From Candidatus Peregrinibacteria bacterium (GTDB lineage Bacteria > Patescibacteriota > Gracilibacteria > UBA1369 > 2-02-FULL-48-14), in assembly GCA_018658105.1 (NCBI GenBank), contig JABHVW010000001.1:124001-188000 (forward strand): DNA of 64,000 nucleotides. Reading direction: 5' to 3'. Shown here piece by piece: positions 11,666 to 34,722 of this stretch; the stretch's first letter is position 1; each line of letters opens with the position of its first letter. The notes under the pieces were generated by a model. It was given only the letters and a program-made list of their open reading frames with translations, made no database searches and was not told the DNA's origin. Made by a program: the position numbers and the translations under genes.

Positions 11666-12430
11666 ATGCGCGTTTATAGTCAATTGAAATTGCTGTTACT
11701 GAATTCTGGCTTAAGTGAAGCTGAAGTAATTGCATATATTGAGCTTTTGAAGAATGGGCCATCAGATAGTATGTCTGCTTTAATCAACAGAACAAAGCTT
11801 GCGAGAAGCACTGCATATCATGTTTTGGAACAGCTTAAAGCACGCGGTATAGTTTCTAAGGGTACTGGCCCGCTGAAGGCTTTGTCGCTGAAAGCATTGG
11901 TTGAAGACCTAAAAAGAGAGCAGAGGCGTTCACAAAAAACTATACAAAAGCTGAGGAATCTTTCGCCATTTTTGCATATGCCAGAAAATTCTGTAGATGA
12001 TTTTGAGGTTCTATATGATTTGGATGATATTAAAAATGCATACATGTTTATGGCTGAGCATGACTACGATACTAACCTGGATTTTGGAGATTATGAAAGT
12101 TTTATTGATGCACTTGGTGACTCGTCTATTGGGTTTAAATTCAGAGAAAAGAGGGCTTCGCATGCAAAACATCATGCGATTTGCACAACTTTTGGGCCGA
12201 ACTTAAAAGAGTTTTGCAATGAAGAAGATTTAGAAAACTTTAAAAATCGTTTTGATATGATGAAAAATATATCTTTTGAAAATAAATGGATCATTTTTTC
12301 AGATAATAGTGATTATGTAATGTTCAATGACACAAGTGATCCAGATTTTCCAAGTTCGGTTTTACTTAGATCCAAGACGATTGCTGATGTACAGCGCATG
12401 CAATTTGAGAATTTTTCCAAGCTCCTTTAG
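11666..12430 (+). CDS. TrmB-family transcriptional regulator
   Basis: A 254-residue protein with an N-terminal winged helix (residues about 5-75): LNSGLSEAEVIAYIELLKNG, then NRTKLARSTAYHVLEQLKARGIV as the recognition part. A coiled-coil region follows (LVEDLKREQRRSQKTIQKL), and then an effector-like C-terminal domain. TrmB-type regulators usually sense sugars or redox cues; no specific effector can be read here. The stop is 9 nt before the radical SAM gene, which is the likely regulatory or functional partner. Confidence 0.85.
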   Translation: MRVYSQLKLLLLNSGLSEAEVIAYIELLKNGPSDSMSALINRTKLARSTAYHVLEQLKARGIVSKGTGPLKALSLKALVEDLKREQRRSQKTIQKLRNLSPFLHMPENSVDDFEVLYDLDDIKNAYMFMAEHDYDTNLDFGDYESFIDALGDSSIGFKFREKRASHAKHHAICTTFGPNLKEFCNEEDLENFKNRFDMMKNISFENKWIIFSDNSDYVMFNDTSDPDFPSSVLLRSKTIADVQRMQFENFSKLL

Positions 12431-17686: not shown

Positions 17687-17712
17687 GCGATGAGTGCGTG
17701 GTATAATTTTTT

Positions 17713-17727
17713 TGACTAGGCTTCTGT
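17713..17727. repeat. 15-bp direct repeat, copy 1
   Basis: TGACTAGGCTTCTGT, identical to 17822-17836. The copies lie 109 nt apart and bracket the 3' half and terminator of the tRNA-like gene. Confidence 0.85.
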
Positions 17728-17741
17728 AGCTACTGCTATAC

Positions 17742-17769
17742 AAAAGAGACTCCGAATGGAGTCTCTTTT
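17742..17769 (-). terminator. strong hairpin terminator
   Basis: AAAAGAGACTCC and GGAGTCTCTTTT form a perfect 12-bp stem with a 4-nt loop. It has A/T tracts on both sides, so it can end both the pilus operon (plus) and the tRNA-like RNA (minus), 13 nt past the encoded CCA. Confidence 0.85.
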
Positions 17770-17782
17770 GAGTCTGCCAGAT

Positions 17783-17856
17783 TGGTGGAGCCAGGGGGAT
17801 TCGAACCCCCAAGCAGAAGCGTGACTAGGCTTCTGTGCAAGCCGATTGCTAGCCCC
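17783..17856 (-). ncRNA. tRNA-like RNA with alanine-type acceptor and aberrant D and anticodon arms
   Basis: The 74-nt minus-strand sequence has a 7-bp acceptor (GGGGCTA with TGGCTCC), which includes the G3:U70 pair that marks RNAs for alanyl-tRNA synthetase. It also has discriminator A, an encoded CCA, and a perfect T arm (five G-C pairs around TTCGAAT). The 39 nt between do not make a normal tRNA: the first hairpin is GCAA/TTGC with a 5-nt loop and no T8-purine9 linker. The second is a 7-bp stem CAGAAGC/GCTTCTG with an 8-nt loop; GGCTT/AAGCC is an alternative. A strong terminator follows. It could be a decayed tRNA-Ala, or a functional tRNA-like RNA. It is too short for tmRNA and has no tag reading frame. 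Confidence 0.65.
17822..17836. repeat. 15-bp direct repeat, copy 2
   Basis: The second copy of the repeat at 17713-17727; it forms one side of the long hairpin in the tRNA-like RNA. Confidence 0.85.
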
Positions 17857-17968: not shown

Positions 17969-18565
17969 GTGAACATTTCGTTTCGCCAAAAAACTGCCGG
18001 CTTTACCTTAGTTGAACTACTTATTGTTATTACAATAATTGGAATTCTTTCGGTTGCGTTGGTGCCGAGATTGATTGGTGGAAGCGCAAAAGCGCGTGAT
18101 GCGGCGAGAAGAGCTGACTTAGGTCAAATTGTCACTGCACTGGAATTATTTGCGAGTGATAATAGTGGGCTTTATCCTGATGCATCTGAATGTACTAATT
18201 CTGTTGCAATGACTGCAGACCTTGGAACCTATATGACTACTGTGCCCGATGACCCTAAGACTGACAATCTTTGGTCTAGTGGAATTAGCAGTTGTGCTGG
18301 CTCTGGTTATGACTATATTGCTTTGGACCCTACAGGGTCTGGATCTCGATCTTTTATGCTTATTGCTGAACTTGAGAATGCTAATGCTACTGGACCTGGC
18401 ACATACCTTAGTGGTGCAATTGGCCCAGCAGTTTTTAATCCAAATCCTGCTACGTTTGATACAGCTGCAGCTGCATTCACTGCTAATGCTGACCACTTAT
18501 GTGGGACGGTAGGTACTGGTGACTGTGTTGCTGCTGGCTTAGCCCTATATGCAATTGGCCGTTAA
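17969..18565 (+). CDS. type IV pilin, first of a tandem pair
   Basis: A 198-residue class III prepilin. The leader has the prepilin peptidase site G-FTLVEL (cleavage after AG, Glu at position 5 of the mature protein). It is followed by the hydrophobic assembly helix ending SVALVPRLIGGS. The globular part has Asp/Cys-rich loops (SECTNS, SCAGSGYDY, HLCGT, GDCVA) that could form disulfides. The start is GTG. The prepilin peptidase gene is not in the window. The helix is nearly identical to that of the next pilin. Confidence 0.92.
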   Translation: MNISFRQKTAGFTLVELLIVITIIGILSVALVPRLIGGSAKARDAARRADLGQIVTALELFASDNSGLYPDASECTNSVAMTADLGTYMTTVPDDPKTDNLWSSGISSCAGSGYDYIALDPTGSGSRSFMLIAELENANATGPGTYLSGAIGPAVFNPNPATFDTAAAAFTANADHLCGTVGTGDCVAAGLALYAIGR

Positions 18566-18588: not shown

Positions 18589-19125
18589 ATGAAAAATTTA
18601 CTTTTAGCTCGGCGGGGCTTCACGCTTGTAGAACTTTTGATAGTTATAACAATCATTGGAATTCTTTCTGTTGCACTTGTACCAAGATTGATTGGTGGAA
18701 GTGAAAAGGCTAGAAATGCAGCTCGAAGAGCTGACTTGCAGCAAATTGCAACTGCGGTTGAATTTTTTGCTGATGATGGCGGTGGTGTTTATCCAGCTAG
18801 CTCAGATGATACTGACTGTGTAAGCACATTAGCTATTGACCCTTACCTTACAACTATACCTGCTGATCCATTAGGCTCACATGACTGGTCTGATGCTGGA
18901 ACAAGTGATGATTGTGCCCTTTTGGGAGGTTATGAGTACTCTGTAACAAGTGATGGGTTTTTACTTTTTGCTGAACTAGAAGGTGAAACAAATGCTGGCC
19001 AAGGTGTTTATGATGCTGCTGCTGACATAGACCCTCTTGATACAACTTCAAATAACCTAGACGCTTTAAGTGCTTGTGCTGTAGTCGGCGACTGTACAAC
19101 TGCTGTCTACGTAATTGCTCGCTAA
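18589..19125 (+). CDS. type IV pilin, second of a tandem pair
   Basis: A 178-residue prepilin with leader MKNLLLARRG then FTLVEL and the same hydrophobic helix as the upstream pilin. The identity continues to about RRADL and then breaks down, so the pair arose by duplication with divergence of the exposed domain. Cysteines occur in TDCVST, DDCALL, SACAVVGDC. One may be the major pilin and the other a minor or alternative subunit; the sequence does not say which. Confidence 0.92.
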   Translation: MKNLLLARRGFTLVELLIVITIIGILSVALVPRLIGGSEKARNAARRADLQQIATAVEFFADDGGGVYPASSDDTDCVSTLAIDPYLTTIPADPLGSHDWSDAGTSDDCALLGGYEYSVTSDGFLLFAELEGETNAGQGVYDAAADIDPLDTTSNNLDALSACAVVGDCTTAVYVIAR

Positions 19126-19198: not shown

Positions 19199-19212
19199 GG
19201 TAGTATTTGATC

Positions 19213-22200
19213 ATGCCACTCCACGCTCCGAAAGCTTTTGTTCGCCTTGTCGTTATTAGTCTTTTAGTGACGATGTTTACGGGGATTTTGCCGACCACAC
19301 AAATGGCTCAGGCACTGACGAATTTGAAGGTTCCGGGTGAAGTTAGCACCTTGAATCCTGGCGGAGGGCTGCCGGAGATTCGAGATGTGCCGGATATTGT
19401 GACTCGTTATGGATTGGTTGCGATTTTGGTTGATGAAGAAACTTGGGGAAGTCAGGCGACAAAAAGCGAGGGTCTGTTTGGCTTTTTGGGGAATACATCG
19501 ATAGCTCGAAAAATTGAGACTTATGCTGAAGACATCCAAGAAGATGTGCAGTGGACACGGACTGTGATTGTGACTGTGGGTGAAGATGATGGGCCGGTGG
19601 AGATCCAGAGAATGCTTGAGCGTTTTTATTATGAGGGGAATCCTGAAGATAGAGACCATACGCGCTTGAGCGGCGTGGTTGTAATTGGTGATGTGCCCTT
19701 GCCTGTTGTGAATAAAGGCGGGCATCGCTTTGTTTCTATGCTGCCGTATACAGATTTCAATGATCCGAGCTATGTGCTAGATGAAGACACCTTGGATTTT
19801 GTGCAGAATCTTGAGGGACAAGATTTACAGGCTGAAGTTTGGCATGGCTTGATGGTTCCACCTGTAAGTGGACAGGCAGGAGTGGACATGCTGTCTAGTT
19901 ACTTTGAAAAAAATCATGCATTTCATGATGGTGATGAAACTTATAGCAATTTTGATCAGAAGCTTTTTATTGGGGATTTTGTGACTGAGGAAAAAACTTT
20001 GAATTCAGTTTCATTTGATAGTTACAACCGTTACTTGGATTTATGGGAGGAAACTGTCTACTACCAATATACAAATGATTTAGTTGAGGATATATATACT
20101 GATCTGCAGGAATCGGTGACGCCTGGAGATGGTTTGGATAATGATGGCGATGGAAAATATGATGAAGAGGCTTCAAATGCAATCGATGATGATGGTGACG
20201 GGCTTGTTGATGAAGATATTGGAGATGGCTTTCATGGAATCGACAATGACGGCGATGGTTTGATTGATGAAGATGGATTTGCAGACAACAACAATGATGC
20301 GGGCTGGGTGATTCCGACTTATTTGGCTGATGGTGGTGGAAAGAAATTATTTGAAGATATGAGAGTGGATGAAGATCCTCCTGGTGATACTACTGGTGGA
20401 GAGGATTTGAATGGCGATGGTTTGCCAGATGGTGATGGCTGCCCTGGGCTTTGTGGCATTGATGATAATGGGGATAGTATTGATCATGATAATGATGGCT
20501 ACCCTACTGGTTGGGAGATTTTGTATGGTTACGATCCTTTCGATCCGAAAAAACCGCACAAACTTGTGAGCAAGAAGGTGAAGCAAATTTATGGGCGTGA
20601 GTTTGAAACGGAAGAGGCGGCGACTAAGTTTTTAGAGAAAAAATTCATAGATAATACAAATGATTTCCGGCATGTGAGTTGTTACGATGATGCTGCCAGA
20701 TTTCATCCTGAGTGGGATGATGATGAAGATGGATTTTGTGATGAAGATGGTTCAACTGAGAATCGTTTGTGGGCAAATGACTTTGGTGTGCCCTATGTTG
20801 GTGAATGTGCCTTTAACGATGCTGATTGTGATGGCTTGATAGATGAGGACAATGAAGGAATGGCTCCGGCGGGAATTTTTGATAATCTTCCGGATATGCA
20901 AGCGAGGAATATTGTGAAAAGCATGACTAATCGTTATGCGGAGATTTTTGATCAACCTCAGGGCATATGGAATCGATTTGTTCAGGGCACTGGGCGATAT
21001 GCTGTGCGTGATTATGATGGTGAGACTGTTAAGAATGATTTTGATAGTGTGGTTTCTTTGATCGCGAAAAAAGATGAATATGTGCAGCAATATTTAAAAT
21101 CTGTGAATGATGATTTGGAACTGGCTTTAGATGAAATTGTGGTTTTGGATCTGCAAAATACTATTCCTGCAGTTGCGGCCTTGATGATAGCTGGTGAATT
21201 TGTTGAAGATGGGGCTAAGACGCAAATTTGTGATCCTACTGCTGGCGAGAAAGCTGACAAAGCTTGTGTTCAGTTTATTAACCATGGAACGGATTCCCCG
21301 AATAAAGGCTTCAATGCATATGTTTCTGGGGGAAGTGCCGAGGCGAATAATTTCAGGATGTACGGATATAATGCTTGGAATCTAGCGTACGATGGTACAG
21401 AAATGTGTAACTTCTATGGAGGTACAGATGAGGAAGGTGGCCAGATTACTGAGTTCAATCGTTTGTATAGAACTTCTGCTGAAGAACTTGTTAAAAAGGA
21501 AATTAAGAATCAAAAAAACTGTACTCCAGATTTACTTTCTTATCGCGATGATATTCCTGAGATTTGTGCGCCAATTGTTGCCGAGTCGTCGGTTAGAGGT
21601 ATTGATGCTGCAAAAGCTGTTGAGCCTTCTGAAATAAGTAAAATAGATATTGGTTTTGATGCTTGTTATGAGTTTAGAGAAATAAATCATTACAACGATT
21701 ATGCCGATAATAATGGTAAATTTAATGATTGGTTGACTGGGAAAATTCGCCGATTTAGAAAAAAAGAAGATGAAGATGATGTGGATAGCTACAATGAATT
21801 TTTGGAGCAGGTTGATGAGAAAAGAGATAATGCTTTCCCGTTAGCTGGAATTTTGGGTGAGCGAAAACAGTTTTGGCAGCTAGATTTGATTCCACAGTCT
21901 GATGCGCATTTTTATTCTTTGACTGATTTGTTCAAAGACATGGGCTGGGAAGATTTCAATGATGATGACATCGATTTATTTATGGCATTAAGAGATGATG
22001 ATGATTCTGTGAGAGTGTTAAATCCTCAAAATGGGACTGGAATGTCTGGGGTTTCTGAGGTGACAGTATTTTTTGATAAATTATATTTAGATGAAAGCAA
22101 ATCTTTGTTTAGTGCGAATTTGGTGCATGATATGCCGCATGGTATGCATTTTTCTTCTGCCTACAAACATGTGCAGCCAACGGTTGATATAATCAATACG

Positions 22201-25200
22201 CAGATACAGGATGCGATGATTCCAAATTTGCCGATTGATAAAACTCGTAGAATTAGCTTTTTGGATAAAGCTGATCAGCCTCGAGAGCTCAACTATTTGA
22301 ACATGTTTAATACAGTAGACATGAAGGATTTTGATGCGAAAGTTGATGAGTTGTCAGATAGGATTTCTAGTGTTTCTGGTGGTGGCGTAGTGCTCAACGA
22401 TGTTGAAGATATGAAGTCACGACTAAATAGGACTCAGCTTGCAGATGCGCTTGAATGGCAGCAGCTAAACTTGGATGCAAAACATGAATATTTGTTGAAA
22501 CATTATTTGGGAGCTGAAGAGCCGATTGTTGCAAAAGCAAGAAATGGATATGAGATGGTTGCGATAATTGCAGATGGAGATGCGACGCGAATTGATTATG
22601 GATACAACGATAGGGACCAAACTGAGGAGGATGCTGAGTGGAACCATAGGAGTCAGGATGAGATTGATGCGGCATTAGCTGCGGCGGCTGCGGCCGAGCC
22701 TGAATATGAAGCTTTGAGCACGGTTAGCAACACTATTCCGATACCGCTCGCTGAGTGGGTGCAAGAAATTCAGGATTGGATGGTTGATTTAAATAAATCT
22801 TTGAGCAGTTTTGATACTTTCGAAAATGGCGGGGTTGCCTGTGGTTATGAATTCCAAGCTAAAGGTGGCGATGATGATGGTGATGGTGTTCCTGATGCGG
22901 CGGATCCGACTGTTTCTTTAAGTGCGAGCAGTGAAGATCTTTCTGTTTTGCAGGCTGGTGGTGCTGATTTTTATAGGATTGACGTTATGGCTTTGGAGCC
23001 AGATGGAACTTTAAATACTGGGGATAATTTTACTGAGGTGGAAATGGAAATTGTGACTGGTGGTGATGAAGGTGACGAGGTTGTTTATGTGGAGGGAAAT
23101 CCGAGAGTTCAAATGACTGGAGGTACAGCGCACTTTTATTTGCGTAGTGCTTTGCCTGGGAATTTCACGGTTAGAGCGCGAGCGACTAACCGAGATGGCT
23201 TCCCTGTTTCTAACGCGATGAGCGGGAGAGTTACGAGTAAGTTTGTAAAAGTGACGAGTTATTACAGTTATGCGTCGGATGGTGCGGTGGATAATATTGA
23301 TGGAGAATTTGTGGAAGTTTTTGACGGTGATGAGGAGCTGCTCGCAAGGTTCAACCCAAATACTGGTAATTTATTTTTGCGATCCGGAGTTGCCGAGCTT
23401 CGCGAGGCGACGGAGGATCTGCCGACAAGGACCGTGATTAGCAGCGATGCTGGGGTTGAGTGGGGTAGCATTTTTATGATTCCTCAAGAAAAGTTTGTGG
23501 GCATAGGAGATGGGCTTTCTGGCGTTTTCGTAAATAAAATTGCTATAGGTGCAAGTGCTGAACTTGTTGAAGGTGTTGTTTATTTAACTGTAGATGGCGA
23601 CGCGGCTGGTGCGGTAAATAATCATGGGCAGATATTTTTAGATGAAGGCTTTAGACTTTCATTTGAAAATCCTGGCGCAATAAATCTTTATGAGCCGCTG
23701 CATATTTTAAATGGATATGGTGAAACTATGTTCACGGTTGAGATAAAAGACTCTTTTTCAGATGTAAATTTTCAAGAAGCAGATGAAGAGTATGAAGATT
23801 ATCTTACGAAAGCTTGGCCAAAAGCTAAACGTGGCCGCTTGATTGAAGTTGCGAAACGTGGACTTTTTGGAAAGGCCTCTGCCGAAAGTGTGATTTTGGA
23901 TTCTGATTCTGATTTGCTAAATGATCTTGAAGAATGGACCGTTGGAACGGATCAAAATGATGCGGATACTGATGGTGATGGATTTGAGGATGGTGCTGAA
24001 TTGTTCACTGGCTTTGACCCTTTACTTGGCAATGAAGCTGCTCTATTTACAGATATAGATCCTAGTCATCCTGCATACCATGACTTGTTGGTGCTTTATT
24101 TAAGAGGTGTGATCAAAGGTTATGAAGATGGAAGTTTCAAGCCGGATAATCGAATGAGTCGAGAGGAATTTGTGAAAGTTAATTTTGGTTCAATTTGTAT
24201 AAATTGTGATAATTTTGATCAAGATTATGAAGCGGAGCTCATGTCTGAATATGGTGCTGCTCCCTTCCCTGATCGCGATATAAATCCTGAATTATTGGCG
24301 TGTGTGGCGCAGGCGAAAGTAGATGATGTTGTTTCGGGTTATGAGGCAGGGCCGGATACTGGAAAGTTTGTGCCAAAGCGTTTTATTAGCCGTGCAGAGG
24401 CGACTAAGGTGCTCGTGGAAACGGCTGATCTGCCTGTTGCTGGGCTTGCTGAAGGTGAAAAATGGTATAGAGAGTACGCAAATACTGCTGAGCTTTATGC
24501 TTTATTTCCTGAGGGAAGTGTTGCGAGTGACTTTTGGTTGGAAGCTGAGATTACTCGGTCTGAGTTTGTGCAAATGGCTGCAAACTTGTTGAGTGCGAGA
24601 GATTGTCGGGAATTTGATACTGACGGTGATGGGCTAAGTGATAATGAAGAAATATATATTTATGGCACGGATATCAATAAAGTTGATACCGATGATGGTG
24701 GTGTTGATGATTTAACGGAGGTCTTGAGGGATAGTGATCCTTTGAATGGTAATGATGACTTCCCTGGGCTTGATGGTGAGGATGGCGAATTGGGAGATGG
24801 GCTTGATGGTGACGGTGAAGGGGTGGATTTGGATGGTGATGGAATAATCGATGGTGAGGAGGATCTTGAGGCTTTGTTTGATTTTGATAGCGATTTTGCG
24901 CATGAGCCTGGTTTATATTTGGTTTCGGACCATGCTGCACTTGAAGAAGTTGCTGTAGCAGATGGTGAAGGTGGTGCGGTTGTGAATGTGTTTACAAATG
25001 AAACTCCGGCGAATGGGGAGTCAACTTTAACTGTTAGGGCTGAAATTCGAGATAAGAGCAGCAGAATTTATACTGATGACAACAGCAGTGTGATTGAGTT
25101 TGTGCTTTCTAGCCGTGATCATGGAAATGTTTTGAGCCGAAATGTGCAAGTGAATAAAGGCTTTGCTGAGACTGTATTTTTGGCTAGTGAGCTTGCTGGA

Positions 25201-28200
25201 GAAATTGAATTGGAGGCAAGAATCACAGATAGTAGTTTGCCGTCTGAAGATGCTCTGATTAAAGTTTATGCTGGTGAACCTGTGCGAACTGAAATAACAA
25301 GTGATTCAAGTGTTCTGCCTGCTGGAGGTGAAAGTGTTACTGATATGCAGGTGAAACTTTATGATTCCTTTAATAATTTGGCGAATCATGGTTTTTACTC
25401 CGTTACGATTGATAGTCCGGATGGCCTGGAGATTTTAGATTTATTTGATGAGAACCCGGATTTGGAAGGAATTCAAGTTACGACTCCAGATGGATTTGTG
25501 AACTTTAGAGTGCTCGCGAGTAGTGAGCCTGGCGTTTCTAGTGTGACTGCGAAGTTGGCGGAAATTCCTGATAGTGGGAGCCGTTTCAATTTGAATCATT
25601 TAGAGGGAATGAGTTTTGAAGTTGAGATTGATGCGCCATTTGTTTTGGCGGGTTCAGAAAGTCAGCAAAGTGTAACTATTAGGGCGGTCGACAGGAGTGG
25701 GCTGCAAGTGAATGGATTTAATGGCTTGGTGCTGGCTAGCGTTAGTGATGTGAATTATGGGGAGTTGAGTGAGACTGGGTTCAATATGAATCGAGGTGAG
25801 GCAAATATTTCTTACACGCCAGGAACTCTAGCTGGAACTGCATCGATCTTTGCTGAAAGTGCGGGGATTGTGGGTGGTAGTACTTCCCTATTGGTAAGAG
25901 CAGCGGATACTTATGAATTGCGGATCAGGAAAAGTGATAATACGAATGTGCTTTCTGCAGGTAGAAGTGAGAATTTTTATATTGAGGCCTTTGATGTGTT
26001 TGGTAATTTTGCTGATCGTGATCAAAGCACGAGTGGCACGATTCGTATAACTGAGGCGACTCAGGAATTTGCTGATATTACTAAATCTAGCTTTAGACTG
26101 CTCGAGGGTGTGTCGAGCTTTACTGTGACTCCGCATGATGCGAGTGGAAAAGTTAATCTTGTAGCAACCGCAGATGATGTTCTTTATGGGTCTTGGGGTG
26201 GCGATATTGATTACTCTTTGAATGGCGATACTATTTCTGAATTGGCGCCGCAAATGCTTTATGGATCTGTGCTTGGGGCTGCATTTGGGGATGTGACTAC
26301 GCCTGATTATATTGGTGGATATTTGACCTTTAATGGTAAAACTCAGGCGATAACTAGTTTGATTTCTGAGCCGGTGCCGAAGAAACGTTTGGCTATTTTA
26401 GATGCTGAGGGTGCGGTGAATTTCCCGGAGGAAAGTATGGTGAATATGAATGTGCTTAGTGCTGGTGCAGATTTGCCGCTGCGAATGCAATGGCGGAATT
26501 TCCCTGGTGCAGACTTAATGGCGGAAATAATTTATGTGTTGCCGAATGGCCTTGATGATGTGAGCACGAAGCTACTTGTTAATAGATCCGACATTGAGTT
26601 GGAAGAAAAAGATGATGCTTTGATTTTACGAGACAGGAAATCTACAGTTTTGAAAATTCGTGATGATGGGCAGATTCTAATTTTGGATCCGCGATATGCA
26701 TTGGTGTTTAACAGTAATGCTGAGGGTCTTGGATTTGGGGTTATGCGAAATACAGAAACAATAATGAGAATTGATTTTGCTGCAAATTGGACTGGTGGCG
26801 TGAATTTATTAGATGACCAATTTGTACTAGAAAGCTGGGACAGTTTAGAGTCTGGGCTTTATATAAAGCCAACAAGTGCGACTGTTCATGATTTTGTGAA
26901 AGTTCCAACTGGAAATAGCAGTAAGAATGCAATGGGTATGGCTCTGATTGATCCGAAAATGGATCTGCCAGCTTCTATGCAGGCTTCGCTTGGTTACCAA
27001 AGTTTGGAGGCTGCTGAAAGTAATGGTGGCATTGGTTGGGAGGATGAAAACAAACATTTATTACTTTTTGCTGCTGGGAATACTGTTGGACAATCTAACC
27101 TGTACTACCCATCTGAAGTTGGGGTTGTGCTCGGCGATCCGACTGTGAAATTACAGACCAGAGGTGATGTGAATGACATGGGCTTTACGAGTGATATTGG
27201 AACTATGGTTTCGGCTTCGCAAGATGATGTTGTGGCATTATTGGACATCGATTACAACGGTGATGGCCAAGAGGATGTGTTGATGGCTTATGATGATGGG
27301 CGCGTGGAAGTCTTACAGAATTTGAAGGCTCCTGTGCGTTTGCAATCAGAAGGTACAATTTTGCATGTTGAGAATGGAATCGCGTCGATGGACAGTGGGG
27401 ATATTAATGGTGATGGGCTCGAGGATTTGGTGGTGGTGACGGAGACTTCGTGTTTTGTGGATGAAATGTGTTTGTATGTTTATGAAAATATTGATGGTGG
27501 TTTTGTTGCGAAAAATCTGACTATTGAAGGTATTGAAGGCAAACCTAGCAAGGTGATTGTTGAAGATTTGAATAATGATGGCTTTTACGATTTGGTTTTG
27601 ACAGATGAGAATATGAAACTTTATGTGGTTTGGAATGCGGCTGGTGAGCTGTCTTCTGTGGATTTAATTGAAGATTTTGGGCTAGAAGCAGATAGTCGGG
27701 TTAATCTTAATTCTGACGTTGCTTTGAGCCATGAAGATATGGAGAATGGGCCTGTGATGGTGCAAGTTTTGGTGGATGAGGAAATTGCAATAACTTTGCC
27801 AGTATTGGATCAAGATGTTCAGGATTTTGTAGATAGACTGAGTTTGAGTGATGATTTTGATTTAACTGTGAACGGCTTAGAAGATGCTGGCGATGTGCAA
27901 AGGCGAGAAAATCGGCCATTTGATTATGCTGATGCAGAGCGGGTTGAGAAGCATTTAGAAACGAAAAAAATAGTTCGTGATTTGAATGGTGGAAAGATTG
28001 AAATGGGTGATATTTTGTCTTACAGCGTGACTGTTCAGAATGTTTCTGCAACTGATAATTTCACTGATTTATATATATCTGACCTGATGGATCCATCTGC
28101 TAGCTTTGATGATGAGAGCTTAACTTGTTTGGATTGTAGAGGTGGTGATGTAGATAAATTCCAAAATGGCAGCCTAAATAGGCCGTGGATTTTTGGACCG

Positions 28201-31200
28201 GTATTGATGCGTAAAGGTGAGTCGGTGACAATTCAATATCAGGGGAAAGCCAGAAGCTTACCGAGTGTTCAGCCTATGGTTGGGCAAGATTTCTATTCTG
28301 ATTACACCGATGATAAATTTGCGGATATTGGTGTGACACTTGCGGGGAATAATACTGGCATATTGCAGCTTTATTATTCAGATGGCTTTGTGAATGAAAC
28401 TGTTGAAAGAGGTGGAGGGCTTTTGGGTGGGTTATTTGATCCAAGTTTCAAACGAATAACTTATAGGTCAAAAACTTATAATCCAGATGATTATGAAGAT
28501 GAAATCGAAGAAGAGCCCTTTGAAGATCCATTTGTTGATAGTGATGGGGATGGAATTATTGATATTATGGAAAATGTTGATAATGAATTAGGAATCCCTG
28601 CGGCTCCTCCTGGACAGAAAGATTATATTGCTGAAATGACTGGTGCCATTGATAAAAATGGTGATGGTTATTATGGAGCTGATGAGTTCTATCAGCAGGA
28701 TGATGATGTGGATGGTGACGGGATAATTGATATTGGTGACGACTGGGTTACTGATGCACCTTTGCTGCTTGGTGAAGATGTGCAGATTGAACAAGATGGT
28801 TTGAACTTCTCTGCTGAGCTTGATTTATTTAATGAAGAAGTAAGCGAGCTTACACAAGTAGTTGAAAAAATTGTGTCTACTTTGACCTGTAATGGTGGCT
28901 GTTTGGCTATCCCTGGAAGTGTGGCGTTTTTAACTCCTGGTAATTTCCATGATCCAATTACTGGTACAACTTTGGCATATGATAATGGCTTCCCTGCCTT
29001 TGGATTGTTTATGGCGGCATTTGTGCCTGTGCCGTGTACGGGGCCAACGTGTCAGAATCCAGCGAGCCCATTTAGAATGTATATTTCTCCGACTACAACA
29101 CTGGGCTTAGGTATGAGTTTTTGTGTTGGGCCGTGGCCAGCTGGTCAATGTGTATCTGTTGGAGTGCCGCTGCTTGGGGCGCTTGGTGTTTGTGATGCTA
29201 TTAATGGATTTATTACGGATGCACTTTCTAAAGCGACTGAATTTACTTCAGATATATCTTCTGGGAAGGCCTTTAATGTGAATCCGAATCAGAATGTGCA
29301 TGAGACTCCAAATGGTATGAGTAGTTCGATTTTCTCTGGATATGTACCTCAAGTTAGTACGCATGTGAACATACAGGTTCCTGGCTTTCCATCTATATTT
29401 ACGGAGTGGTGGAAAGGGCAGAAACTCGAGTTTTTCAAGATGTTAGATTTGCCGGATATTACTGTGATTTATCCAGATCCTAAGAGTTTGGCTAGTGAAT
29501 TTAAGTTCAAAGAAAATAAGGAGAAAAATTTAGAAGATGAAGTTGTGGAACTTGAAGAAGGGCCATTCCAAGGGCTTGAGGGCTTCTTGAACACTGTGCA
29601 TGCCTTGCCACTTGTGGATATAAAACCGAAAGATACTTATATTCATTTCCCTTGGCTTACAGAGGAAGAGAGGCTTCTTGTGAAGAGAGATTGGGAGGAT
29701 TGGCTTCAAGATACAACTGGTGAATTGCTTAGATTTAAACAGTATTTCTCTGAAGAAGGTTTAGCTCAACTTGCTGACCCATTGGTGCAAGAAACTTATG
29801 ATTCGATTGTGGATGTGACCGAAGATGCTATTCAAGCTATGGAGGCGAACTTGGCTGTGCTTGAAGGTTACAAAGAAATCCCTGAAGAAATATTGAAATT
29901 GCGTGATATTCAAGCTTATTATGCGCAAATAATTGTTTGTTATTTAGATGCTGTTTTAGGTCACTTTGCTGGATATATTGCTGAGAATGCTCAGAGAATT
30001 GAGGCTTGGGGGCAATGGTGGGTTGATTTACAGGGAATTATTGCAGGTTGGGAAGTTTTAATTAAAGCATCAATAAATCTTATGGATTCGTGTGATAGGT
30101 GTACGAATCAAAGGTGGAGTGCGATGCAGCTCTTGTTTAGTTTATTTGCTTTTATCCCTGAATTCCCGGTGATTGAGCTGCCGAAATTACCAGATATTGT
30201 TTTGGATGTTTCGCATATTCAAGCAGGTGTAGATATTATTTGGCCTGATATTCAGTTTGTTCCAGAAACTGTAAATATACCTGAAATTCCTAGAATTGCT
30301 TTGCCGACGGCTAAGCTGAAAGTTGATTTTGATTTTAGTTTAAATATTCCGACTTTGCCGGAGTTCCCGATTATATTTGAATTGCCGGAACTGCCTGGTT
30401 TGCCTCTGCCGGATTTACCTAGTTTGCCTCCCCCACCTGCAATTCCTGAATTGCATCCGAGCATAAAAGCGAGTTTAAAAGTTACCAGTGATATTCTGCG
30501 TGTGATTTGTATTATCAGGAATGGTTTTGTGCCTGTTCCTGAGACTATGTTGAAACAGCAAATTGAAAATCTAACTGAGCGTGGTAGTGAGTTTGTGTTG
30601 CCGCTTGATTTAGCTGTAAAAGTGGAATGGCCTGGGTTTAGACGAGATTTCTTGGAAAGAATTGAGGTTACAACTTATTTGAATCTTACGGCTGACTTTA
30701 GTTTGCTATATGGTTTGTTTGAAAATTTCAGTGAACAAAGTGAAGAACTAACTGAAGATATTGCTGAGCCTCTGAATAAAGCGATGCAAGATTTAGCAGA
30801 TGAAATTCAAAAAGCATTCTTGTTCTTTGATGTTGATTTAGAGGCTGATCTTGAGGCTGAGGGTGAATTTGGACCTTCAAGTTATGTGCCAGAAACTCAT
30901 GCAGGATTGCAGGAAGCTGAAGATTTAGCGGCTTCATTTATTGATCACCCAATGGTGAAAGATAATTTGGCTGCATTGACTCAAACTCTTGGTACTTTGC
31001 AAACTGAGATTGATGCGTGGGCAGATGAAATGCCTGAAGAGTACGAGCTTGTTGCGACTCAAACTATGCTTAATGAAGATGATCCGATTCTACATAGATA
31101 TGATGAAATATTGGCTGAGGGCCGCGATTTAGATTCTGATTTGATTGCGAGGATTCAAGATACACCACTGTCTGGTGTTGCGAGTATGAGGGAAAATCTG

Positions 31201-34200
31201 ATCGGATATGTTGAGAATCTTGAGCGAGGTACTGAAAGGTTGCGTTTGATGGATGGCGAAGAATTTATGACTTATTTGGCGCAAGAAAGTCCTCAAAATG
31301 ATTATATGTTTGCGAGCCAAGAAAGTGTGACGATTCCTGAATTGTTTGACTCTGTTGTGCTTGCAGAAAACAATCCTGGAGAAGAAGAGAAAAAGGCAAG
31401 GTTGCTTGCTGCTGGCCCATATGAAGGTGACATTAGTGTGGGAGCTGTAAGTGAAAGTGCTGGGGCTGAAGCTATAAATTCTGGGCTTTATATACAAGAT
31501 CCTGAAACTGGGGTGGGCACGAAATTAATTGATTATAGCCAAGAATCTGATGCGAATGTTGAGATTTTATTTGTTGATATGGATGGAGATGGTGATGAAG
31601 ATATTGTTTATTCTTTAGGTGGAGACGTATATGTGAAGGAAAATCACAATAAAACAGCGAGGGTGACTCGGATTGCTCGAGATCCTCAAATAAGCTCTGT
31701 TTCTGAAATGGCGCCTGCACATGGTTCGGTTAGAAACTTTAAATCTGGTAGGAATGGTTATGAAACTGCGAGTTTCTCATTTAGTGCAAGTGAAGATGCG
31801 ACTGCATATGAAGTGGTCTTTTATGACTCGCTGGATGCGAGTGAGTCTGCACCAGATGAGAACTTGAAACGCATGCTTTTGACTGAGGAAGACAGGAATG
31901 AATCTTTGCCAATGACAGATGGAGATGGTGAGGAAGTGCCTCGTGGAAGGCCAATTGCGACGGACAGAAAAGCCCTTAATTTCGAGGGTGTTGATATGTC
32001 TTTGACTGTTGGCAAAAATAATGAATTTATAATGCCGGACATTCGAGATAGTCGTTTGGTTGCTACGGCAGTTAGTGGAAATATTAAGATTTATGATGCG
32101 AGAAAAAGAACAGTAATTTCTAGTGATGGAGAGCTTCGAAGTGGTGATGAAGTGCAAATGCAAACTATGGAAGATGCTAAAATTAAGATTACTGAGAATG
32201 GAAAAGTGAGCACTCTGAATTTGCCTGAATATACTTGGGTGCAATTTGGCCGTGCTGATGAAAGAGTGATTCGTATTGAAAGTGGATCTGTAATTTGGAT
32301 AGAGAATGATGTGATTGAGGAGCAAGATCTAATTAAAAATATGGAAATCTTTGCTGATGAGAATGTGGTTCTATTGAGTGGAGGGGCGGATGCAACTCTT
32401 CAAACTAGTGAAGGTGTGATTTTAGAACTAGATAAACGTGAAAGCTTTATGATGGATGAGTTGATTAGCTCTTCGAATCCTTCTTCTAGGATTGGCTTAG
32501 AAAATGGGGCTTTCTACACGCAAACGAGAGGCCTTTATAAAGATGGTTCTATTGGAACATTTAGTAGTGAAATTCTTTTGAATCCGCAGGTTTGTGGCGA
32601 TTCATCTAGCCCCTACCCTATTATTGGTGAAGGTGGCGGCGATGGTGATGACGAAGAAGATGGTGGTCTTGGCGGTGATGGTGATGGTCCTGGCGATGGA
32701 GGTGGCGGGCCGGATGGAGGCTTGAGAGATGCGATTAATGATAGAAGCATTGATCTTGCGATTTATTCAACTCATAAGCTTTCCGCTGAGCAGTCGTTTG
32801 ATAGTGATAGTGAAATTGTGGATGCATATTGGGACTTGGATGCGAGTGTGGATGCAGATGGTGATGGAATTGCGAATAATGATGCACAGCTTGTTGGCTT
32901 GACTGCGGAGATTGGGCCATATGATGATATTGATAGAAAAGAGGTGACGCTTTGGGTTTTCGATACCGTTGGAAACAACTCAAGTGCGAGAGTTTATGTA
33001 GATATTTATGTTCCGAATATTATTTTGTCTGATGCGACTACACTGCAAATAAATGGTACTACTTCGCCTTTGAGCCCTGAATTCCCTTTTCATATTGTTA
33101 GGGATCGTGATGGGCTTGTGACAGAAGTTGGCGATGGATATTTGACTGATGATGATGGAAATATTTTAATAAATAATCTTTCGGATTCTGACTTATTGTC
33201 TGTGTTTAATGCTGAGGGCCAAGTGATTGCTGAGTTTAATCCGACTACAAAACAAGCAATTGCTGTTGATGAAAGATATGATATTAAGGCGTTGGCTGCT
33301 GAGGATGGTTGGCCTTCTAGGTTAGCTGTTTACGAGAAAGTTACAGGTTTGGTGCATGCAAGTTTTGTCTTTGTTTCGGATAATAATCGCTTCATAAATG
33401 AATTCTTAACACCACTTGAAGGTGTTGATATTGCGGTGCAAAAAAGTGTGACCGTTTACTTCTATGAAGAAGAAAGTTATGAAATTAATGAAAGTGGTTT
33501 GTTTGGGCGTGATGCTTTGGGAACGACTGAATTGATGATAACTAGAGATGGGAATATTACAATTTTTGATCCTAGTTATGAAGTGAGGCGTAGAGATGCT
33601 GAGAGTTTGGATGAATATTTGATTCTTGAAATTTATAAAGATGATGTGCTTGAACTTGAGCTTTGGCCTGGCAGCCCAGATGGTGTGGATATTGTTACGA
33701 GCAATGATTTTGATCTGCCGCCTTCCCTATTAATTGGTGAAGGAGATTCTCTTGCGGCTGACTTTAGCCTATATTTTCAAGATGTTTCGAATGATGATGT
33801 CTTGTTTGAAGATATTGCTGAGATGGTTGAAAGAGGTGTGCTGGAAGGTTATGAAAGGCCTGATGGAAGATATTTCTTGCCGGATCAACAAATAAATAGG
33901 GCTGAGTTTGCGAAGATTGTTCTTGGAATATTGTGTATTGCTCCGGGTGAAGATGCCTATATTTCTCCACATGTATTCAATGATATTTTGAGCTCTTCTG
34001 CATGGTTCTATCCATATACAAAAGAAGCGTTTAATAGGGATTTAATTACGGGTTATCTAGGTGAAATTGATGCCGATGGTTTGGCTCCTTATAAGCCAAC
34101 AAATACGATTACAAGGGCTGAGGCTGCGAAAATTGTTCTTGAGGCCTTGGATCAAGAAGGTGTGATTGAGCTGCCTGATAATTTAACTGGTGAGCCTTGG

Positions 34201-34722
34201 TATGAGCCATATATTAGAATTGCTCAAGATTTGGCTCCATATATGACTGAGGATTTAACTCAGGGATCAGAGAACTTTATTTTGACGACGGATGAAGCGA
34301 GGGATCCGAATCATATAATGACTAGGTATGAATTTGTAGAAATGTCGTCGCGAGTATTGCAGGCGCACAACTGTTTTGATTTGGATAGTGATAACGATGG
34401 GCTAATAAATTATGACGAGGAAAATATTTATGGCAGTGATCCATACAATCCAGATTCAGATGAAGGTGGGGTTGCTGATGGAGTTGAGGTGACTCGAGGC
34501 ACTGATCCGACGAATGGTGAAGATGACTTTGAAGATCAGCTGATTTTTGAAGCCGAGCCTGGTGTTTATGCGGTACATGAAGAGTGTTTTGCTTGCCCAT
34601 GTAGCGCTTTGATTGATTATGCTTCTGACTTTAGGCCGGGTGATGAAGTGTTTGCTATAATTAAAAACGAGGATGAGGAAGTGTTCGGTGTTAGTAATTC
34701 CTTACCTGTTAAATCGCCATGA
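19213..34722 (+). CDS. giant secreted surface protein with two SLH triplets (5,169 aa)
   Basis: One uninterrupted frame of 15.5 kb. Approximate residues: signal peptide 1-34 (ends QMAQA); gingipain/C25-fold-like domain 40-300 (VVVIGDVPLP, then AEVWHGLMVPP and SYFEKNHAF); Ca-binding DGDG repeats 305-360, 400-435 and 500-550; Ig-like 1230-1345; TSP3-type repeats then three SLH domains 1562-1850 (FTDIDPSHPAYHDL, KGYEDGSFKPDNRMSREEF); Ig-like repeats 1930-2330; VCBS/FG-GAP repeats 2670-2810 (DINGDGLEDLVVV); DUF11-like 2915-3015; Cys/Pro-rich and helical parts 3230-3900; VCBS near 4130; FecR-like 4265-4415; PKD-like 4510-4600; second SLH triplet 4850-5050 and TSP3. The start is ATG 19213; TTG 19207 is possible. 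The SLH domains imply attachment to a cell-wall polymer or S-layer role. Catalytic residues of the C25-like part are not evident. The stop overlaps the next gene (ATGA). Confidence 0.93.
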   Translation: MPLHAPKAFVRLVVISLLVTMFTGILPTTQMAQALTNLKVPGEVSTLNPGGGLPEIRDVPDIVTRYGLVAILVDEETWGSQATKSEGLFGFLGNTSIARKIETYAEDIQEDVQWTRTVIVTVGEDDGPVEIQRMLERFYYEGNPEDRDHTRLSGVVVIGDVPLPVVNKGGHRFVSMLPYTDFNDPSYVLDEDTLDFVQNLEGQDLQAEVWHGLMVPPVSGQAGVDMLSSYFEKNHAFHDGDETYSNFDQKLFIGDFVTEEKTLNSVSFDSYNRYLDLWEETVYYQYTNDLVEDIYTDLQESVTPGDGLDNDGDGKYDEEASNAIDDDGDGLVDEDIGDGFHGIDNDGDGLIDEDGFADNNNDAGWVIPTYLADGGGKKLFEDMRVDEDPPGDTTGGEDLNGDGLPDGDGCPGLCGIDDNGDSIDHDNDGYPTGWEILYGYDPFDPKKPHKLVSKKVKQIYGREFETEEAATKFLEKKFIDNTNDFRHVSCYDDAARFHPEWDDDEDGFCDEDGSTENRLWANDFGVPYVGECAFNDADCDGLIDEDNEGMAPAGIFDNLPDMQARNIVKSMTNRYAEIFDQPQGIWNRFVQGTGRYAVRDYDGETVKNDFDSVVSLIAKKDEYVQQYLKSVNDDLELALDEIVVLDLQNTIPAVAALMIAGEFVEDGAKTQICDPTAGEKADKACVQFINHGTDSPNKGFNAYVSGGSAEANNFRMYGYNAWNLAYDGTEMCNFYGGTDEEGGQITEFNRLYRTSAEELVKKEIKNQKNCTPDLLSYRDDIPEICAPIVAESSVRGIDAAKAVEPSEISKIDIGFDACYEFREINHYNDYADNNGKFNDWLTGKIRRFRKKEDEDDVDSYNEFLEQVDEKRDNAFPLAGILGERKQFWQLDLIPQSDAHFYSLTDLFKDMGWEDFNDDDIDLFMALRDDDDSVRVLNPQNGTGMSGVSEVTVFFDKLYLDESKSLFSANLVHDMPHGMHFSSAYKHVQPTVDIINTQIQDAMIPNLPIDKTRRISFLDKADQPRELNYLNMFNTVDMKDFDAKVDELSDRISSVSGGGVVLNDVEDMKSRLNRTQLADALEWQQLNLDAKHEYLLKHYLGAEEPIVAKARNGYEMVAIIADGDATRIDYGYNDRDQTEEDAEWNHRSQDEIDAALAAAAAAEPEYEALSTVSNTIPIPLAEWVQEIQDWMVDLNKSLSSFDTFENGGVACGYEFQAKGGDDDGDGVPDAADPTVSLSASSEDLSVLQAGGADFYRIDVMALEPDGTLNTGDNFTEVEMEIVTGGDEGDEVVYVEGNPRVQMTGGTAHFYLRSALPGNFTVRARATNRDGFPVSNAMSGRVTSKFVKVTSYYSYASDGAVDNIDGEFVEVFDGDEELLARFNPNTGNLFLRSGVAELREATEDLPTRTVISSDAGVEWGSIFMIPQEKFVGIGDGLSGVFVNKIAIGASAELVEGVVYLTVDGDAAGAVNNHGQIFLDEGFRLSFENPGAINLYEPLHILNGYGETMFTVEIKDSFSDVNFQEADEEYEDYLTKAWPKAKRGRLIEVAKRGLFGKASAESVILDSDSDLLNDLEEWTVGTDQNDADTDGDGFEDGAELFTGFDPLLGNEAALFTDIDPSHPAYHDLLVLYLRGVIKGYEDGSFKPDNRMSREEFVKVNFGSICINCDNFDQDYEAELMSEYGAAPFPDRDINPELLACVAQAKVDDVVSGYEAGPDTGKFVPKRFISRAEATKVLVETADLPVAGLAEGEKWYREYANTAELYALFPEGSVASDFWLEAEITRSEFVQMAANLLSARDCREFDTDGDGLSDNEEIYIYGTDINKVDTDDGGVDDLTEVLRDSDPLNGNDDFPGLDGEDGELGDGLDGDGEGVDLDGDGIIDGEEDLEALFDFDSDFAHEPGLYLVSDHAALEEVAVADGEGGAVVNVFTNETPANGESTLTVRAEIRDKSSRIYTDDNSSVIEFVLSSRDHGNVLSRNVQVNKGFAETVFLASELAGEIELEARITDSSLPSEDALIKVYAGEPVRTEITSDSSVLPAGGESVTDMQVKLYDSFNNLANHGFYSVTIDSPDGLEILDLFDENPDLEGIQVTTPDGFVNFRVLASSEPGVSSVTAKLAEIPDSGSRFNLNHLEGMSFEVEIDAPFVLAGSESQQSVTIRAVDRSGLQVNGFNGLVLASVSDVNYGELSETGFNMNRGEANISYTPGTLAGTASIFAESAGIVGGSTSLLVRAADTYELRIRKSDNTNVLSAGRSENFYIEAFDVFGNFADRDQSTSGTIRITEATQEFADITKSSFRLLEGVSSFTVTPHDASGKVNLVATADDVLYGSWGGDIDYSLNGDTISELAPQMLYGSVLGAAFGDVTTPDYIGGYLTFNGKTQAITSLISEPVPKKRLAILDAEGAVNFPEESMVNMNVLSAGADLPLRMQWRNFPGADLMAEIIYVLPNGLDDVSTKLLVNRSDIELEEKDDALILRDRKSTVLKIRDDGQILILDPRYALVFNSNAEGLGFGVMRNTETIMRIDFAANWTGGVNLLDDQFVLESWDSLESGLYIKPTSATVHDFVKVPTGNSSKNAMGMALIDPKMDLPASMQASLGYQSLEAAESNGGIGWEDENKHLLLFAAGNTVGQSNLYYPSEVGVVLGDPTVKLQTRGDVNDMGFTSDIGTMVSASQDDVVALLDIDYNGDGQEDVLMAYDDGRVEVLQNLKAPVRLQSEGTILHVENGIASMDSGDINGDGLEDLVVVTETSCFVDEMCLYVYENIDGGFVAKNLTIEGIEGKPSKVIVEDLNNDGFYDLVLTDENMKLYVVWNAAGELSSVDLIEDFGLEADSRVNLNSDVALSHEDMENGPVMVQVLVDEEIAITLPVLDQDVQDFVDRLSLSDDFDLTVNGLEDAGDVQRRENRPFDYADAERVEKHLETKKIVRDLNGGKIEMGDILSYSVTVQNVSATDNFTDLYISDLMDPSASFDDESLTCLDCRGGDVDKFQNGSLNRPWIFGPVLMRKGESVTIQYQGKARSLPSVQPMVGQDFYSDYTDDKFADIGVTLAGNNTGILQLYYSDGFVNETVERGGGLLGGLFDPSFKRITYRSKTYNPDDYEDEIEEEPFEDPFVDSDGDGIIDIMENVDNELGIPAAPPGQKDYIAEMTGAIDKNGDGYYGADEFYQQDDDVDGDGIIDIGDDWVTDAPLLLGEDVQIEQDGLNFSAELDLFNEEVSELTQVVEKIVSTLTCNGGCLAIPGSVAFLTPGNFHDPITGTTLAYDNGFPAFGLFMAAFVPVPCTGPTCQNPASPFRMYISPTTTLGLGMSFCVGPWPAGQCVSVGVPLLGALGVCDAINGFITDALSKATEFTSDISSGKAFNVNPNQNVHETPNGMSSSIFSGYVPQVSTHVNIQVPGFPSIFTEWWKGQKLEFFKMLDLPDITVIYPDPKSLASEFKFKENKEKNLEDEVVELEEGPFQGLEGFLNTVHALPLVDIKPKDTYIHFPWLTEEERLLVKRDWEDWLQDTTGELLRFKQYFSEEGLAQLADPLVQETYDSIVDVTEDAIQAMEANLAVLEGYKEIPEEILKLRDIQAYYAQIIVCYLDAVLGHFAGYIAENAQRIEAWGQWWVDLQGIIAGWEVLIKASINLMDSCDRCTNQRWSAMQLLFSLFAFIPEFPVIELPKLPDIVLDVSHIQAGVDIIWPDIQFVPETVNIPEIPRIALPTAKLKVDFDFSLNIPTLPEFPIIFELPELPGLPLPDLPSLPPPPAIPELHPSIKASLKVTSDILRVICIIRNGFVPVPETMLKQQIENLTERGSEFVLPLDLAVKVEWPGFRRDFLERIEVTTYLNLTADFSLLYGLFENFSEQSEELTEDIAEPLNKAMQDLADEIQKAFLFFDVDLEADLEAEGEFGPSSYVPETHAGLQEAEDLAASFIDHPMVKDNLAALTQTLGTLQTEIDAWADEMPEEYELVATQTMLNEDDPILHRYDEILAEGRDLDSDLIARIQDTPLSGVASMRENLIGYVENLERGTERLRLMDGEEFMTYLAQESPQNDYMFASQESVTIPELFDSVVLAENNPGEEEKKARLLAAGPYEGDISVGAVSESAGAEAINSGLYIQDPETGVGTKLIDYSQESDANVEILFVDMDGDGDEDIVYSLGGDVYVKENHNKTARVTRIARDPQISSVSEMAPAHGSVRNFKSGRNGYETASFSFSASEDATAYEVVFYDSLDASESAPDENLKRMLLTEEDRNESLPMTDGDGEEVPRGRPIATDRKALNFEGVDMSLTVGKNNEFIMPDIRDSRLVATAVSGNIKIYDARKRTVISSDGELRSGDEVQMQTMEDAKIKITENGKVSTLNLPEYTWVQFGRADERVIRIESGSVIWIENDVIEEQDLIKNMEIFADENVVLLSGGADATLQTSEGVILELDKRESFMMDELISSSNPSSRIGLENGAFYTQTRGLYKDGSIGTFSSEILLNPQVCGDSSSPYPIIGEGGGDGDDEEDGGLGGDGDGPGDGGGGPDGGLRDAINDRSIDLAIYSTHKLSAEQSFDSDSEIVDAYWDLDASVDADGDGIANNDAQLVGLTAEIGPYDDIDRKEVTLWVFDTVGNNSSARVYVDIYVPNIILSDATTLQINGTTSPLSPEFPFHIVRDRDGLVTEVGDGYLTDDDGNILINNLSDSDLLSVFNAEGQVIAEFNPTTKQAIAVDERYDIKALAAEDGWPSRLAVYEKVTGLVHASFVFVSDNNRFINEFLTPLEGVDIAVQKSVTVYFYEEESYEINESGLFGRDALGTTELMITRDGNITIFDPSYEVRRRDAESLDEYLILEIYKDDVLELELWPGSPDGVDIVTSNDFDLPPSLLIGEGDSLAADFSLYFQDVSNDDVLFEDIAEMVERGVLEGYERPDGRYFLPDQQINRAEFAKIVLGILCIAPGEDAYISPHVFNDILSSSAWFYPYTKEAFNRDLITGYLGEIDADGLAPYKPTNTITRAEAAKIVLEALDQEGVIELPDNLTGEPWYEPYIRIAQDLAPYMTEDLTQGSENFILTTDEARDPNHIMTRYEFVEMSSRVLQAHNCFDLDSDNDGLINYDEENIYGSDPYNPDSDEGGVADGVEVTRGTDPTNGEDDFEDQLIFEAEPGVYAVHEECFACPCSALIDYASDFRPGDEVFAIIKNEDEEVFGVSNSLPVKSP
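23898..24760 (+). repeat. internal TSP3-SLHx3-TSP3 module, copy 1
   Basis: Within the giant gene: calcium-type DSDSDLLNDLEEW repeats, three SLH domains, and a second Asp-rich repeat ending DPLNGNDD. The SLH triplet plus trailing TSP3 layout recurs at 33765-34530; the leading TSP3 repeats are found only in this copy. Confidence 0.7.
33765..34530 (+). repeat. internal SLHx3-TSP3 module, copy 2
   Basis: Three SLH domains (FQDVSNDDVLFEDIAEM..., HVFNDILSSSAWFYPY..., EPWYEPYIRIAQ...) followed by DLDSDNDGLINYDE and GTDPTNGEDD, matching the layout of copy 1 at protein level. Confidence 0.7.

Follow-up and report, generated by a model that had tools for sequence, protein, structure and literature searches.

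Alanyl-tRNA synthetase (AlaRS) recognizes G3:U70 and the elbow of its substrate and ignores the anticodon. An alanine acceptor can therefore do without a decoding arm, as tmRNA does. The RNAs described here resemble the tRNA-like domain of tmRNA (SsrA, Rfam RF00023) in their G3:U70 alanine identity, CCA end, T arm and reduced D-arm, in having no anticodon arm, and in the RNase P-type 5' end expected of them. Unlike tmRNA, they are only 70-74 nt long and have no tag frame and no pseudoknots; a genome can hold several of them, each paired with a predicted antisense RNA of its own, and the genome studied here has a separate ordinary tmRNA. With canonical tRNA-Ala (RF00005) they share the acceptor, G3:U70, the T arm and the GG of the elbow; however, they have no linker of positions 8-9, their D-stem is 2-4 bp, their central arm is 7-9 bp, position 37 is mostly C, and nearly all of them are missed by ARAGORN and Rfam.

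Cis-encoded antisense RNAs that nucleate on a U-turn loop, with many orthogonal paralogues, are familiar from type I toxin-antitoxin systems and plasmid antisense control (hok/Sok, CopA/CopT), where YUNR loops provide the nucleation geometry of fast natural antisense systems. The target considered here differs in that it encodes no small toxic peptide and has tRNA identity, being folded over its entire length as a tRNA mimic. In type VIII toxin-antitoxin systems (SdsR/RyeA; CreTA), which provide precedent for RNA toxins (PMC12737573), both partners are RNA and an antisense RNA opposes an effector RNA. The same arrangement is predicted here from sequence, but with a tRNA mimic of conjectured toxicity as the effector, whereas CreA works with Cascade and SdsR acts on mRNAs. 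Precedent for a competence-regulated module is given by toxTA of Haemophilus influenzae, a toxin-antitoxin module within the competence regulon, although toxTA consists of a protein toxin and antitoxin in one operon (PMC6957337).

Results

Structure and spread of the RNA family

The window examined is a 64,000-nt stretch of a Candidatus Peregrinibacteria genome, and the RNA of interest, copy A, is read from its minus strand, from 17856 to 17783 (Table 1). Acceptor strands GGGGCTA and TGGCTCC enclose a stem of GCAA and TTGC around the loop TCGGC, a single A, a central arm of CAGAAGC and GCTTCTG around the loop CTAGTCAC, the trinucleotide CTT, and a T arm of GGGGG and CCCCC around the loop TTCGAAT; the discriminator A and CCA complete the 3' end. 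The minimum-energy fold (-32.1 kcal/mol, z = -2.8, with 2 of 200 shuffles equally good) consists of a 7-bp acceptor with G3:U70, a 4-bp stem with a 5-nt loop, a 7-bp stem with an 8-nt loop and a 5-bp T arm with a 7-nt loop, and is identical to the geometry that an earlier note on this DNA had proposed. The same note had described the RNA as having no normal anticodon arm, and the central arm does depart from anticodon arm geometry, with only 39 nt separating the acceptor part and the T-arm part. Its further suggestion of a tmRNA-like tail finds no counterpart in the sequence, as there is no attached tag frame or pseudoknot domain; the genome carries a normal tmRNA elsewhere, as well as a normal tRNA-Ala(UGC).

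A canonical cloverleaf identified by a covariance model would have spoken against the earlier note, but neither ARAGORN nor Rfam at its gathering cut-offs calls copy A, and a lax Rfam scan returns only weak acceptor and T-arm matches to tRNA-like families. Among 18 family loci tested with the Rfam tRNA model, only copy B just passes, at 29.6 versus a cut-off of 29, and ARAGORN recognizes 3 of about 30 members, which it reports as odd tRNAs. With the tmRNA model, the best match is 26.5 bits (below 47), compared with 113 for the true tmRNA elsewhere in the genome.

Copy A, three further full copies and one truncated copy are carried by the source genome, and a homologue is present in another genus of the same taxonomic family (CALRGE010000003.1, Candidatus Peribacteria; genome G004). 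The first covariance model (R2) was built from four clean copies, in the alignment of which 97.7% of cells are paired and two-sided changes are seen at 7 of 23 pairs. This model finds members throughout the whole order, several per genome. In an alignment of 31 members, 97.6% of cells are paired, two-sided changes are seen at 17 of 22 pairs, and the covariation score is reached by none of 500 shuffles. Of 288 genomes of the class, 43 have a match to the refined model R3 at E <= 1e-9; among 380 genomes sampled from the phylum, 22 have one at E <= 1e-8, and these include other classes. Copy A itself scores 84.9 bits with R2 and 69.3 bits with R3. In total, the covariance models yielded 81 distinct units from more than 40 Patescibacteria genomes, with taxonomic spread stated by rank. 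Distribution within the Patescibacteria is patchy, and since many of these genomes are without the family at the thresholds used, it is dispensable. The earlier note had named a search for covarying homologues as a check on its proposal and their absence from relatives as grounds for abandoning it; covarying homologues occur across the Patescibacteria, and relatives keep the structure through compensatory changes.

The alanine elements recognized in copy A by the earlier note are characteristic of the family as a whole. G3:U70, the discriminator A and the GG of the D-loop are found in all 81 units, CCA in 67 of 81, and the T arm is kept throughout; the members were gathered by models that contain G3:U70, a mild circularity (selection bias) in these counts, although a unit with another pair there would lose no more than a few bits. 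The apical loop of the central arm has the consensus CUYGWCA, with the U in 73, the G in 73 and the last A in 80 of 81 units, as counted from alignment columns (strict extraction of a 7-nt loop succeeded for only 26 units). It is an anticodon-loop-like U-turn loop in which position 37, a purine in tRNAs, is usually C. Judged by its sequence, this loop is more conserved than simple antisense pairing requires, and a protein or the ribosome may bind it as well.

A loose-pattern scan of genome contigs, with too few fixed bases, gave mostly chance matches, of which only one (L142, Candidatus Peribacteria) was genuine, and no true member came from viral sequences scanned with that pattern. Open-access papers yielded no account of RNAs like these, and the family is not in Rfam 15; on the basis of these two sources, it is a previously undescribed family of tiny alanine tRNA-like RNAs.

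Two of the source-genome copies are defective. The acceptor end of the copy at C1:210181 is mismatched (CTCAACCG), and its divergent partner has one G-U change. This copy has on either side a member of a large paralogous protein family that lacks a Pfam match and also borders units in other genomes (L310, L370, L371). The truncated copy retains competence-type boxes and the tRNA-like 5' half, but no partner RNA was found there when one was looked for. Complementarity between this copy and the adjacent tRNA-Ser was striking at first, and was dropped because other loci gave it no support.

Table 1. Features of copy A and its surroundings in the window, and further copies in the source genome
Feature	Position	Strand	Evidence or remark
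tRNA-like RNA (copy A)	17783..17856	-	fold; covariance model matches; covariation
Acceptor with G3:U70	17850-17856/17787-17793	-	fold, covariance models, covariation
D-arm with GG	17837-17849	-	fold, covariance models, covariation
Extended central arm	17814-17835	-	fold, covariance models, covariation
T arm	17794-17810	-	fold, covariance models, covariation
Discriminator A	17786	-	
CCA	17783-17785	-	
ACAGAAGCCTAGTCA, central arm 5' strand and loop, predicted antisense target	17822..17836	-	exact 15-nt repeat
Predicted antisense small RNA, start about G17714	17713..17769	+	17713-17727 (first 14-15 nt) complementary to copy A arm; 3' end is the shared hairpin
TATAAT -10 box of antisense RNA	17702..17707	+	6 nt ahead of predicted start; spacing general in family
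Symmetrical hairpin CAAAAGAGACTCC-GAAT-GGAGTCTCTTTTG, inferred shared terminator of two convergent genes	17741..17770	.	sequence
Promoter repeats TTCAG-N6-TTCAG-(TTTAG) upstream of copy A, same as dprA promoter of source genome	17880..17905	-	motif count; 0/200 shuffles
Copy B	C1:60298-60370		led to by weak tRNA/tmRNA model matches
Copy C	C1:206567-206638		led to by weak tRNA/tmRNA model matches
Fourth full copy, damaged acceptor end	C1:210181-210251 (L239:11181-11251)		found with first covariance model
Truncated copy E, 5' half only	C10:57896 (L017/L022)		130 nt before tRNA-Ser(GCU)

A predicted antisense partner

Part of the central arm (15 nt, ACAGAAGCCTAGTCA) is repeated beyond the hairpin downstream of copy A, and read on the plus strand the repeat lies 6 nt after a TATAAT. 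This layout recurs, in different sequences, at copies B, C and D. The hairpin had been taken for a strong terminator of copy A in the earlier note. It is symmetrical, however, and its T run forms part of the stem, for which reason a consensus scan scores no intrinsic terminator at this site; the hairpin has the appearance of a bidirectional terminator that serves a plus-strand gene as well. A consensus scan likewise gave no -35 box for the antisense RNA at copy A.

The survey for such partners covered 29 loci at first and then all 81 units. An exact repeat of at least 11 nt occurs within 250 nt in 58 of 81 units, compared with 5 of 1620 for the arms of other units. Allowing G-U pairs, a helix of at least 12 bp can be formed within 240 nt in 72 of 81 units versus 15 of 324 controls using other units' arms, and a clear partner is missing in 9 of 81 by this 12-bp criterion. 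Helix length was preferred to duplex energy as the measure of pairing; energy alone places 49 of 81 units below the 5% control quantile and, owing to GC content, distinguishes them poorly from controls. Among the 72 partners, 43 are convergent with the tRNA-like RNA, 13 are in tandem downstream, 13 are divergent and 3 are in tandem upstream. Upstream of 54 of the 72 there is a -10 box that matches at 5 or 6 of 6 positions, compared with 5 of 216 control windows, most commonly 6 nt from the paired part. Two distant clades were fetched after the hypothesis had been formed, and all ten of their units have a partner of 13-17 bp in tandem downstream, several behind TTGACA and TATAAT-like boxes. Both the survey and the new clades thus agree with the type VIII pattern, in which both partners are RNA and the antitoxin is complementary.

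At two syntenic loci from different species of one genus (L381 and L385), arm and partner have both changed, and complementarity is kept with G-U pairs and one mismatch each. Given this co-variation, and the retention of complementarity in four arrangements, the relationship is one of RNA-RNA pairing and not a DNA repeat. Apart from the guide, the small RNAs have no conserved body, and the partner at L316 consists of guide and terminator only. No guide of the source genome has a second site there longer than 12 nt, which is within the range of shuffled guides. A candidate tag reading frame in one small RNA (GCUGCAUAA in L310) was rejected, since other copies do not keep the frame. On these sequence data, the partner is a predicted gene for a dedicated cis-encoded antisense RNA that pairs with the central arm.

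At L299 and L312 (genomes G029 and G018), a second tRNA-like 3' end (ACGGCTCCACCAGC) lies between terminator and partner RNA, apparently a remnant duplication.

Promoter and genomic context

The tRNA-like RNAs of the source genome are preceded by three TTCAG-type boxes with 11-bp spacing. The motif has 24 sites in this genome, compared with 2 for a reversed control, and the box also precedes the genes for DprA, SSB, a ComFC-like phosphoribosyltransferase with a zinc ribbon, an M23 peptidase and a lamin-tail protein. The box differs in other genera, but within one genome it has drifted alike before dprA and the tRNA-like RNAs. When the promoters of the tRNA-like RNAs were locally aligned with that of dprA, 15 of 24 units beat all 200 shuffles and the other 9 were within the shuffle range. 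The tRNA-like RNAs of the source genome share their promoter with late competence genes, and those of other genomes share theirs with dprA, as expected of members of a competence regulon.

Several further boxes were observed. Weaker ones with two mismatches, at C4:152681 (L222) and C2:171541 (L218), precede genes for a PemK/MazF-like toxin and a ribbon-helix-helix protein, which by sequence are possible protein toxin-antitoxin members of the same regulon. Five TTCAG-type boxes with 11-bp spacing at C11:66090-66138 (L215, L223, L224) have no clear gene directly downstream, and a match at 11699-11725 on the minus strand of the window falls within an opposite-strand coding region and is probably due to chance.

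Copy A has a type II secretion F/PilC-like gene on one side and a type IV pilin gene on the other. Neighbor-gene tallies revealed no conserved neighbor protein family across loci, indicating that the module is self-contained. Nearby in the window are two adjacent type IV pilin-like genes (17969-18565 and 18589-19125) with an almost identical N-terminal segment (GFTLVELLIVITIIGILSVALVPRLIGGS), and an open reading frame of 5171 amino acids (19207-34722) with many DxDxDG-type, calcium-binding repeats, a candidate giant surface protein.

Discussion

The antisense RNA gene, the paralogues, the phylum-wide spread and the competence promoter were all absent from the earlier note. Structure, conserved alanine identity, a complementary partner gene and a promoter common with dprA can be read directly from the sequences. 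To account for them, we consider it moderately probable that these loci are two-RNA modules of the natural-transformation (competence) regulon of Patescibacteria, each composed of an alanyl-tRNA mimic and its dedicated antisense RNA, with the free mimic acting as a brake or toxin. RNA 1 would be a stripped-down alanine tRNA, with a shrunken D-arm and an arm of 7-9 bp with a U-turn loop in place of the decoding arm, whose acceptor, T arm and elbow, including the GG of the D-loop, would suffice for AlaRS and EF-Tu. RNA 2 would be a short antisense RNA of guide and terminator, made from an ordinary promoter adjoining RNA 1. Pairing would begin with its 5' end at the 3' part of the loop and proceed for about 12-20 bp through the 5' strand of the arm, unfolding RNA 1 and marking it for degradation. 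That the RNAs are transcribed, charged and degraded in this manner is what we infer. With RNA 1 driven by the competence promoter, RNA 2 would set a threshold that RNA 1 exceeds only with the competence genes on; since the tRNA-like RNA is regulated and the antisense RNA has an ordinary -10 box, the system would be off unless competence raises the tRNA-like RNA. Free RNA 1 would then be an uncoded alanyl-RNA occupying AlaRS, EF-Tu, SmpB or the ribosome, as a reversible brake or RNA toxin, and the pair would resemble type I or type VIII toxin-antitoxin systems in function. This effect on translation is conjectured, interference being the most economical guess. Ordinary orphan regulators or alanyl donors would be expected to have the same features in their sequences.

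A more specific version, which we regard as unlikely, is a competence-triggered addiction module made entirely of RNA, in which the charged mimic is switched on when incoming DNA could replace the locus. If recombination removed the module, the antisense RNA would not be renewed and the remaining mimic would arrest the cell, so that the element would resist curing by transformation. Such a module would account for the scattered loci without common neighbors, the several orthogonal copies, the dedicated antisense RNAs and the competence promoter.

An alanyl donor is also an unlikely explanation. An AlaRS-charged RNA might give alanine to a transferase that modifies the envelope or peptides during competence, and the antisense RNA would do no more than limit the amount of this RNA. 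The competence promoter would fit, as would the retention of alanine identity in all 81 units despite the loss of decoding features; however, a dedicated antisense RNA at every copy would be superfluous for a donor, and no transferase family is linked to the loci. Alanine identity is awkward for the idea that the small RNA regulates other mRNAs and is itself removed by the tRNA-like RNA, a decoy induced in competence, since a decoy has no use for alanine. The promoters do suit a regulated decoy and a constitutive small RNA, but with guides of the source genome having no second complementary site beyond chance length, and small RNAs conserved only in the guide, we judge this quite improbable. 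We hold just as little of a tRNA that decodes or mis-decodes, inserting alanine at other codons. Some mitochondrial tRNAs do compensate a long anticodon arm with a short D-arm, and the near-tRNA length and the anticodon-like loop with its U-turn and terminal A are in keeping with this; nevertheless, position 37 is usually C and not a purine, positions 34-36 differ among copies, and the arm co-changes with the antisense RNA and not with a codon.

Very improbable is a rescue RNA in two pieces, with the small RNA and the tRNA-like RNA jointly taking the role of a tmRNA. The alanine rule and the missing decoding arm recall tmRNA, and the partner pairs at the place of tmRNA helix P2, but the partner has neither conserved body nor frame, can be as little as guide and terminator, and coexists with an ordinary tmRNA in the genome. 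A decayed tRNA, or a DNA-level repeat (target-site duplication or inverted repeat) without RNA function, we reject. The truncated and damaged-acceptor copies of the source genome would fit, yet all stems covary, alanine identity is invariant, and the partner persists through four gene arrangements and changes together with the arm between syntenic loci.

Natural transformation and genetic methods are available in cultivated Saccharibacteria (PMC11665869), so the two-RNA competence module would be directly testable in them, provided that they carry the family. If the module acts as proposed, natural transformation would gain an RNA component, and aminoacyl-RNA would join the possible RNA toxins and translation brakes. 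A tRNA mimic with conserved alanine identity would then be a regulated product of competence under the control of its own antisense RNA, and we know of no earlier RNA class of such a kind. For the Patescibacteria, of whose RNA biology, to our knowledge, almost nothing is known, this would represent a conserved noncoding RNA system.
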